A stretch of DNA of 45,268 nt from assembly GCA_002862545.1 (NCBI GenBank), contig PKDJ01000032.1:1-45268 (forward strand). Reading direction: 5' to 3'. Position numbers and translations under genes: made by a program. Below are positions 9,439-12,872 of this stretch, piece after piece. Within the stretch, counting starts at the first letter, position 1. Every line of letters starts with the position of its first letter. A model generated the notes under the pieces. It had not been told where the DNA came from, searched no databases, and was given only the letters and a program-made list of their open reading frames with translations. The stretch comes from Pseudomonadota bacterium (GTDB lineage Bacteria > Myxococcota_A > UBA796 > GCA-2862545).

Positions 9439-9462
9439 ATACTTGAACGATCGTTGAAGTAT
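9439..9462. promoter_or_regulatory. Palindromic operator of the ArsR/SmtB-type gene
   Basis: A 24-bp palindrome, perfect except for two symmetric positions: outer arms ATACTT and AAGTAT, one mismatched G on each side, and a perfect core AACGATCGTT. Its right end overlaps the ATG at 9461. Size and imperfect dyad symmetry fit the operators of ArsR/SmtB metal-sensing repressors, which bind apo and release on metal binding. Overlap with the start implies that the transcript starts at or very near the ATG, or that the real start is the GTG at 9473. Confidence 0.8.
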
Positions 9463-9808
9463 GGAATCACCCGTGACGCACCCCAGCCCGTCCTGCGACG
9501 ACCACCCCGCACACGAGCACACCCTCGTGTCCGACGAGGTGCTGCAGCAGGCCGCCGCGATCTGTGCCGCTCTCGGTGAGCCGTCTCGCCTTCGGCTGCT
9601 CGAGCTCCTTCACCAGCAGCCTCACTGCGTCTCGGAGCTCGCCGCCGAGACCGGAGCGTCGATGTCCAGCGTGTCGCAGCGCCTCAAGGTGCTGGCGACG
9701 GCACGACTCGTGACCCGTACCCGCGATGGCAAGCACATCTACTACGCCCTCGCTGACGCCCACGTCCGCCACATCCTCGAGGAGGTCTTCGACCATGCCA
9801 CAGAGTGA
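9461..9808 (+). CDS. ArsR/SmtB-family zinc-responsive repressor
   Basis: A 115-residue winged-helix repressor. The helix-turn-helix spans about residues 55-80 (CVSELAAETGASMSSVSQRLKVL) and the wing follows (VTRTRDGKHIYYAL). The C-terminal helix carries the complete alpha-5 metal site of SmtB/CzrA-type zinc sensors with exact spacing: D99, H101, H112, E115. The N-terminus adds further potential ligands (C12, H15, H18, H20), as in sensors with an alpha-3N site, but only a single Cys (C56) stands at the alpha-3 position. It overlaps the following His-rich gene by 14 bp, so the two are co-translated. Expected to derepress itself and the His-rich gene when zinc is high. An alternative start is GTG at 9473. 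Confidence 0.92.
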   Translation: MESPVTHPSPSCDDHPAHEHTLVSDEVLQQAAAICAALGEPSRLRLLELLHQQPHCVSELAAETGASMSSVSQRLKVLATARLVTRTRDGKHIYYALADAHVRHILEEVFDHATE

Positions 9809-10148
9809 CTGCACCGCCCACGCCAACCACGACCACGTCCACGGCCCCGACTGCGGGCACGTGCGCATCGCTCATGATGGCCACGTCGACTACCTCCACG
9901 ACGGGCACCTGCATCATCCCCACGGCGATCATGTCGACGAGCACACGATCGCCGTGAGCGCGACGAATCCTGGAGCCTGCACGCCGTCGCATGCGTGCAG
10001 CGGCCATGACGCCGACCACGTCCACGGACCGGGCTGCGGTCACGAGGCCGTACCGCATGGCGACCACGTCGACTACTTGGTCGACGGCCACTTGCACCAT
10101 CCCCACGGCGACCACTGCGACAACCACGGCCCGGTGGACGTGCTGTAG
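9795..10148 (+). CDS. Histidine-rich metal-binding protein
   Basis: A 117-residue protein with 27 histidines and 6 cysteines, without signal peptide or membrane segment. It consists of two diverged copies of one module (residues about 14-46 and 75-107), each with HVHGPxCGH, HVDYLxDGHLHHPHGDH. The ATG at 9795 follows GAGG by 9 bp and overlaps the end of the zinc-sensor gene, so it is translationally coupled. I infer a cytoplasmic metal (zinc) buffer or chaperone induced through the upstream sensor. I recall similar proteins next to ArsR genes and sometimes labelled as transporter-associated, but no transporter gene follows here. Confidence 0.85.
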   Translation: MPQSDCTAHANHDHVHGPDCGHVRIAHDGHVDYLHDGHLHHPHGDHVDEHTIAVSATNPGACTPSHACSGHDADHVHGPGCGHEAVPHGDHVDYLVDGHLHHPHGDHCDNHGPVDVL

Positions 10149-10688: not shown

Positions 10689-11957
10689 ATGGAGCGAGAG
10701 GCCCTTCCGGCTATGAGGGCAGCGTCGGCAAACGTGGACAGCACGTCACTCGCTGGAGCAGCTCCCATGGCCACGACTCGAGTCCCCTCCGCCTCTGACG
10801 AGCCCGCCGAGCTGCCGGCTCTGTCCAACGAGGAGATCGGACGGTACAGCCGCCACCTGCTCCTCGACGAGGTCGGCTTGGCGGGGCAGCGGCGTCTCAA
10901 GGCCTCGAGCGTCCTCTGTGTCGGCACGGGAGGTCTGGGCAGTCCTGTCCTGATGTACCTCGCCGCTGCGGGCGTCGGACGCATCGGTCTCGTCGACTTC
11001 GACGTGGTCGATGCCTCCAACCTCCAGCGTCAGGTGATCCACGGGACGTCGACGCTCGGCACGTCGAAGGTTCGATCCGCCAAGGAGCGGATCCTCGAGA
11101 TCAATCCCAACATCCGAGTCGACGTGTACGAGGTCGCCCTCACGAGCGAGAACGCGCTGCGAATCCTCGAGCCCTACGACGTGGTCGTCGATGGCACCGA
11201 CAACTTCCCCACCCGGTATCTGGTCAACGATGCCTGCGTGATCCTTGGAAAGCCCTACATCTACGGCTCCATCTTCAAGTTCGAAGGACAGGCCAGCGTC
11301 TTCAACCTCGACGGCGGACCGAACTACCGCGACCTGTACCCGGAGCCCCCCCCGCCCGGGCTCGTGCCGAGCTGCGCCGAGGGCGGAGTGCTCGGCGTCC
11401 TCCCCGGAGTGATCGGCACCATCCAAGCCACCGAGACGATCAAGATTCTTCTCGGCACTGGCACCTCGCTCTCGGGACGCCTGCTGCTCTACGACGCCCT
11501 CGACATGTGCTTTCGGGAGCTCACGCTGCGTCGTGACCCCAGCGCAGAGCCCATCACGACGCTCATCGACTATGTCCAGTTCTGCGGTTCTCCGGCCGTC
11601 CAGCAGGAGCTGCTGGAGAGGAGCGACGACGAGCCCTTCGCGCGCATCACGGCGACAGAGGCTCGGTCTCGCCTCGACACAGGCTGGTCACCCGTGTGGA
11701 TCGATGTTCGCAGGCCACAGGAGTGGGACATCGCGAAGCTCGCGCTCGCGAGCCACTTCATCCCCCACGAGCGCATCAGCGAGGTCGCAGGTGAGCTCCC
11801 CCACGACCAGGACATCGTGCTGCAGTGCAAGAGTGGTGGTCGCTCTGCCAAGGCTGCAGCGACCTTAGCGGCGCTCGGCTTCACCCGACTGTACAGCCTC
11901 GAGGGCGGCATCAACGGCTGGGCGAGAGACGTCGACCCGACGCTGCCCACCTACTGA
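10689..11957 (+). CDS. moeZ: Sulfur-carrier-protein adenylyltransferase/sulfurtransferase (MoeB/MoeZ-like) with rhodanese domain
   Basis: A 422-residue E1-like enzyme that adenylates the C-terminal glycine of ubiquitin-like sulfur carriers (MoaD, ThiS, CysO type) and then transfers sulfur from its rhodanese domain. The adenylation domain has GTGGLGSP (79-86) and the catalytic segment PSCAEGGVLGVLPG with Cys229. The NYRDLYPEPPPPG stretch lacks the Zn-binding CxxC pairs of E. coli MoeB, as in MoeZ-type proteins. The rhodanese domain occupies about 315-420 with active Cys380 in CKSGGRS. The ATG at 10689 has AGGAG 6 bp upstream; homology starts later, so the ATG at 10767 is possible. No sulfur-carrier or molybdopterin gene is adjacent. 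Confidence 0.93.
   Translation: MEREALPAMRAASANVDSTSLAGAAPMATTRVPSASDEPAELPALSNEEIGRYSRHLLLDEVGLAGQRRLKASSVLCVGTGGLGSPVLMYLAAAGVGRIGLVDFDVVDASNLQRQVIHGTSTLGTSKVRSAKERILEINPNIRVDVYEVALTSENALRILEPYDVVVDGTDNFPTRYLVNDACVILGKPYIYGSIFKFEGQASVFNLDGGPNYRDLYPEPPPPGLVPSCAEGGVLGVLPGVIGTIQATETIKILLGTGTSLSGRLLLYDALDMCFRELTLRRDPSAEPITTLIDYVQFCGSPAVQQELLERSDDEPFARITATEARSRLDTGWSPVWIDVRRPQEWDIAKLALASHFIPHERISEVAGELPHDQDIVLQCKSGGRSAKAAATLAALGFTRLYSLEGGINGWARDVDPTLPTY

Positions 11958-12401: not shown

Positions 12402-12872
<471 letters not shown>

Follow-up and report, generated by a model that had tools for sequence, protein, structure and literature searches.

This locus raises the question of what an SmtB-type repressor controls when the gene that overlaps its own encodes a small histidine-rich protein (hereafter the His protein) and no transporter lies beside the pair. 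The stretch of DNA analysed here, referred to as the window, is 45,268 nt of contig PKDJ01000032.1. An earlier note on this DNA had described a two-gene unit with a zinc-type sensor and no linked transporter, and this description is supported, with autoregulation of the unit as the likely mode. The operator at the start codon is conserved in relatives, and Pfam searches of the immediate neighbours and the larger ORFs of the first 20 kb found no transporter family and no linked metal exporter among the ORFs tested. The genome itself carries two heavy-metal P-type ATPases and two CDF proteins outside the unit, and no ABC-3 permease was found in its assembly, which is 88% complete. Just 3' of the unit lies a MoeB/ThiF adenylyltransferase fused to a rhodanese domain (MoeZ-like; 10689-11957, + strand), and a low-complexity Asp/Thr repeat occupies 12448-12872 within a predicted protein ORF. 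The features of the unit are collected in Table 1.

Table 1. Positions of the repressor, the predicted operator and the His protein within the window.
Feature	Position	Strand	Details
Palindromic operator (predicted), ATACTTGAACGATCGTTGAAGTAT	9439..9462	.	24 bp; overlaps the repressor start codon
ArsR/SmtB-family repressor gene	9461..9808	+	115 aa, ATG 9461; PF01022, NF033788, SmtB as best PDB match
Repressor C56 and E59	9626..9637	+	at the positions of the SmtB alpha-3N ligands C61 and D64 (1r1t alignment)
Repressor alpha-5 metal site, DAHVRHILEEVFDHATE	9755..9805	+	D99, H101, H112, E115; motif search
Shine-Dalgarno AGGAGGT of the His gene	9780..9786	+	inside the repressor gene; 7-nt anti-SD match
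His-rich protein gene	9795..10148	+	117 aa, 27 His, 6 Cys; family without a name
His protein module 1 (HVHGPDCGH...HVDEH)	9834..9944	+	alignment; beta strands at residues 23-50 in the model
His protein module 2 (HVHGPGCGH...HCDNH)	10017..10127	+	alignment and model; occurs singly in many ZnuB fusions

The repressor and its operator

The repressor matches PF01022 (E=6.3e-12, Pfam search) and NF033788 (E=2e-24, 85 bits against a cut-off of 55, NCBIfam search), and its closest solved relative is SmtB itself (PDB 1r1t, E=3e-17). The alpha-5 ligand set DxHx10Hx2E, claimed by the earlier note to be a full D-H-H-E zinc site, is indeed complete (D99-x-H101-x10-H112-x2-E115, residues 99-115) and aligns residue for residue with D104, H106, H117 and E120 of SmtB. 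The winged-helix domain, the ligand set and the inverted-repeat operator that characterize the alpha-5 zinc sensors of the ArsR/SmtB family are all present. A motif search for DxHx10Hx2[EHD], in which the last position may be E, H or D, found this set in 34 of 35 repressors adjoining the His gene. Judging by residue positions, three residues of the N-terminal tail, C12, H15 and H18, may possibly form together with C56 and E59 a second, alpha-3N-like metal site. The alpha-3 Cys is found in many relatives; in the alphaproteobacterial ones it is replaced by Ser or another residue or is absent, and the alpha-5 set is kept. The in-frame stop codon TGA at 9455-9457 makes ATG 9461 the earliest possible start, and GTG 9473 is a possible alternative. 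At one locus in another genome (L049), the repressor gene upstream of the His gene is seemingly broken by a frameshift, through either degradation or a sequencing error.

The palindrome reported by the earlier note over the start codon is matched at 11 of its 12 pairs, is the only 24-bp palindrome of such quality within the 45-kb window, and was equalled in none of 5000 dinucleotide shuffles of the 100 bp around it. SmtB operators are imperfect inverted repeats, and palindrome statistics on the relatives taken singly were for this reason mostly not significant; the relatives were therefore searched jointly for a shared motif, against shuffled controls. The joint palindromic motif upstream of the repressor genes reached a log-likelihood of 361, compared with 49-56 in eight shuffled sets, the control runs having used fewer restarts than the real run. 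The motif has two flavours, ACTTGAA..TTGAAGT and ATTCCAT..ATGGAAT, and at most loci the repressor start codon lies from 9 nt inside to 15 nt past its end. When the window is scanned with the 24-bp motif derived from its own site and those of its relatives, the best match is the 9439 site (20.6 bits; the next best scores 10.9). The motif also marks the repressor start in most loci of the window's phylum in which the repressor adjoins the His gene, a partial replication, given that a few of these contigs correspond to motif training loci. Several of the same-phylum loci share operators or upstream sites with the Myxococcota/Myxococcales contigs L027, L057 and L074, which makes Myxococcota the probable phylum of the window. 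On this sequence evidence, the predicted operator at the repressor start is real and conserved.

The His gene itself is also a likely target of the operator, as suggested by four loci (L034, L066, L070 and L076) in which the repressor is divergent or elsewhere and the motif precedes the matched His coding region by about 50-65 nt; in L070 and L076 these sites are near-identical to the window operator. Most solo His genes among the loci scanned have neither repressor nor operator motif. A genome-wide search for the palindrome, which the earlier note had recommended as a route to a distant transporter, led nowhere: two pattern searches of the 88%-complete genome found no second good copy. One candidate, TGAACGATTGTTCA at C20:18464, was rejected as it does not have the ACTT/AAGT flanks.

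With respect to translation, the window's repressor start is preceded by only a 3-nt anti-SD match. This asymmetry with the His gene recurs across loci, with Shine-Dalgarno matches of at least 5 nt at 3 of 28 repressor starts and 21 of 28 His starts. Pairs of -35/-10 boxes overlapping or just before the operator score at least 9 of 12 in 15/32 relatives, compared with 1/64 control positions; in the window itself, no promoter above controls was recognisable. The placement of the boxes in relatives and the rarity of Shine-Dalgarno matches together make it likely that the transcript has a short, Shine-Dalgarno-poor leader of roughly 10-35 nt. The leaderless transcript that had been suggested for this locus is, in the strict sense, not supported by these signals, about half of the relatives having boxes that predict a short leader. 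The spacing TATCCT-N6-ATG seen in L088, whose genome belongs to the same family, is compatible with a leaderless start.

The His protein family

The His gene begins inside the repressor gene with a 14-nt overlap, and its product, which is 23% histidine, consists of two similar modules that constitute an internal duplication, just as the earlier note described. Searches of Pfam (E up to 0.1), NCBIfam, PHROG and PDB sequences gave no match to this protein, and a literature search found no papers that name its family or use "zinc transporter permease", a label discussed below. Relatives are nevertheless numerous: at least 566 are present in the genome collection, the best 80 of which are 66-82% identical to the window's protein, and the matches listed come from Proteobacteria, Planctomycetota, Verrucomicrobiota, Acidobacteriota, Myxococcota and others. 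An alignment of 55 His proteins has 30 columns that are invariant across phyla, comprising many His, three Cys and several Asp, Gly and Tyr, and its mean column identity across phyla is 73%. An AlphaFold model built with this alignment has two beta-meander lobes (mean pLDDT 83.7, pTM 0.76). The precise conservation of positions, together with the predicted model, suggests an ordered, site-specific fold rather than a floppy sponge.

Comparison of the model to PDB folds with Foldseek yielded no significant match, 2cs7 and 6csl being weak, non-significant ones (E about 5-7). Among viral models, the top and only good structural match is A0A5K0U9W0 in BFVD (E=1.5e-3, probability 0.99), a protein of the giant virus Yasminevirus that bears the name of a cation efflux (CDF) protein.

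In 38 of the best 80 of at least 566 relatives, a sample picked by similarity to the query and not an unbiased census, the His gene is immediately preceded by a repressor gene of the same orientation; profile search identified 35 of these, and the reading frame runs together in the other three (L006, L050 and L083). In L034 and L068 the repressor is divergent from the His gene. Within the window's phylum, the family occurs in 47/284 genomes, and the repressor is directly upstream in 17 of the 33 loci inspected. About half of the relatives in both the 80-locus and the same-phylum samples have neither an adjoining repressor nor an operator, which implies that the function of the His protein is independent of such regulation. 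A Pantoea plasmid also carries the repressor-His pair, as does a Pediococcus plasmid, where a transposase adjoins it; other annotated metal genes are absent near both. Only 2 of 38 genomes from the family and order to which the window belongs have the His gene, the window's own genome being one of them, and this patchiness indicates that the repressor-His unit behaves like an accessory cassette.

Zinc genes beside and fused to the family

Of the same 80 loci, the best of at least 566 relatives, 12 have ZnuB within 6 kb, 11 ZnuA, 11 a Zur-like FUR, 5 HupE and 4 an ArsP_1-type permease, and on a Paraburkholderia plasmid the His gene adjoins znuABC. Within the window's phylum, one family has the His module itself at the C-terminus of ABC-3 (ZnuB-type) permeases whose PF00950 match exceeds the cut-off, and the alignment profile retrieves such fusions at E about 1e-8 to 1e-29.

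Loci L133-L138, L146 and L147 encode permeases of this type with one or two C-terminal His modules. Two of them, MT837699.1 (L146) and MT836058.1 (L147), are gut contigs deposited as "Bacteriophage sp." (unverified) in which the fusion was recognised by eye; they look like bacterial sequence. A Rhodococcus plasmid encodes a free single module of 50 aa (L099:3968-4117) annotated as "zinc transporter permease", a label that was probably carried over from the ZnuB fusions.

Another set of permeases accompanies the family at two loci, L066:3974-5833 (-) and L076:3531-5660 (-). These proteins of 620-710 aa have a C-terminal ArsP_1 domain (PF03773), long His-rich tails and an N-terminal half that is ZIP-like by eye, and their genes are divergent from the His gene, near an SmtB-type repressor. 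By these sequence features, we regard them as candidate zinc exporters. ArsP_1-profile matches occupy a like divergent position upstream of the His gene in L062 and L074.

A proposed zinc-response cassette and its known counterparts

We propose, with a probability of about two in three, that the two genes form an autoregulated zinc-response cassette in which zinc releases the repressor and a folded cytoplasmic His protein, made in excess, takes up the metal. At normal zinc, an apo repressor dimer would sit on the palindrome at the start of transcription and translation and keep the operon off; a rise in cytoplasmic zinc would fill the alpha-5 site and release the repressor, allowing a short-leader mRNA to be made. 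Little repressor and much His protein would come from this short message, since the repressor start has no Shine-Dalgarno sequence and the His gene has a strong one. The two beta-meander modules, lined with invariant His, Cys and Asp, would then take zinc as an acceptor, buffer or store, so that free zinc falls and repression returns. What the sequences show directly is the genes, the motifs, the operator, their conservation, the gene linkage and the fusions; the rest of this scheme, namely zinc as the metal, derepression, the cytoplasmic location, zinc binding with its stoichiometry and the excess translation, is inferred. Buffering as the response in place of efflux, as the earlier note had it, remains plausible; the ordered protein and the ZnuB fusions point to a zinc acceptor or store over a simple sponge. 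As to the choice among sink, store and acceptor, the fusions would favour an acceptor or store, and control by the repressor would favour a role in excess. Against the cassette as proposed, the ZnuB fusions and the Zur linkage could indicate a role in scarcity rather than in excess.

The ABC-3 permeases with one or two modules at their C-terminus and the frequency of ZnuABC and Zur neighbours also agree with another role, in which the His protein would serve a zinc importer as chaperone or regulatory partner: it would receive zinc at the cytoplasmic face of a ZnuB-type permease, or inhibit it when loaded, and be made under repressor control when import overshoots. We consider this account, taken as a whole, unlikely: many loci have no importer nearby, and the window's own genome, at 88% completeness, has no ABC-3 permease, so that the free protein must work without one. 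A sink for toxic Cd or Pb, or for Ni/Co, with the repressor using its Cys-containing N-terminal/alpha-3 site or with alpha-5 responding to Ni/Co, is less probable still. The extra Cys residues could favour Cd/Pb, C56 and E59 align with the alpha-3N ligands of SmtB and are preceded by C12, H15 and H18, and HupE/UreJ genes lie near some His loci; against this, the alphaproteobacterial relatives keep the alpha-5 set with Ser or no Cys at alpha-3, and zinc importers and Zur dominate the neighbourhoods. That the His protein is an ordinary low-complexity peptide with no defined structure, paired with the repressor incidentally, might be supposed from its 23% His content and the weak promoter signals, and is very improbable in view of the invariant columns and cross-phylum identity of the family, the confident beta-meander model, the recurrence of the operon pairing and the presence of the operator at the His gene.

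The zinc-response cassette would also be a simple design, the operator over the start and the unequal ribosome sites giving scarce repressor and excess effector. More tentatively, and at somewhat less than even odds, the module may be a widespread undescribed intracellular zinc-handling fold that serves bacteria as a free store or acceptor controlled by an SmtB-type repressor, as a cytoplasmic receiving domain on ZnuB importers and possibly, in view of the Yasminevirus match, on CDF transporters. If true, this bears on the fate of zinc once it has been imported. Far less is known about the proteins that store or accept zinc in the bacterial cytoplasm than about pumps and sensors, and here a compact, highly conserved family without a database model is tied in some phyla to a zinc sensor and in others to zinc importers; with such small soluble proteins, the question of a dedicated zinc acceptor becomes testable.

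ZiaR and AztR are repressor-exporter systems, the exporters being ZiaA and AztA. SmtB/ZitA and smtB-zur of mycobacteria are cases in which an ArsR-family zinc sensor represses the zinc-excess response (PMC7174638). The window's unit is similar to all of these in placing a predicted ArsR-family zinc sensor over such a response; unlike SmtB/ZitA, ZiaR and AztR, with their exporters ZitA, ZiaA and AztA, the window's operon contains no exporter and its genome no second good operator. The ZnuB-type permeases that carry the same module at their C-terminus are membrane importers, whereas the window's two modules form a free protein of their own, with an ArsR-family repressor over it. The streptococcal proteins PhtA and PhtD also consist of small beta-sheet zinc modules with His motifs and are operonic with a zinc importer component (PMC3842936). 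The modules here are likewise predicted to be small beta-sheet zinc modules with His motifs, and the triad fold is hit weakly and non-significantly through 2cs7 and 6csl (E about 5-7); PhtA and PhtD are surface proteins, however, and the window's protein has no significant fold match and no Pfam match at E up to 0.1, the histidine-triad model included.

The closest counterparts are the repressor-metallothionein units SmtB-SmtA of Synechococcus, BxmR-BmtA of Oscillatoria and AzuR-NmtA of Anabaena, of which BxmR-BmtA is an operon and azuR lies within znuABC (PMC8790569). As in these units, an SmtB-type repressor with an alpha-5 site and an imperfect inverted-repeat operator stands over a small (here predicted) metal-binding protein and not a pump. 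The nmtA operator is located 36 nt upstream of the nmtA start (PMC8790569), whereas that of the window lies at the repressor's own start codon. The effector differs as well: with 6 Cys and 27 His in 117 residues and no Pfam or NCBIfam match, it is not a Cys-rich bacterial metallothionein of the SmtA/BmtA kind but a His-rich beta protein of an unrelated, nameless family. By this comparison, the unit is best read as the SmtB-metallothionein logic applied to a different metal-binding fold that has no name.
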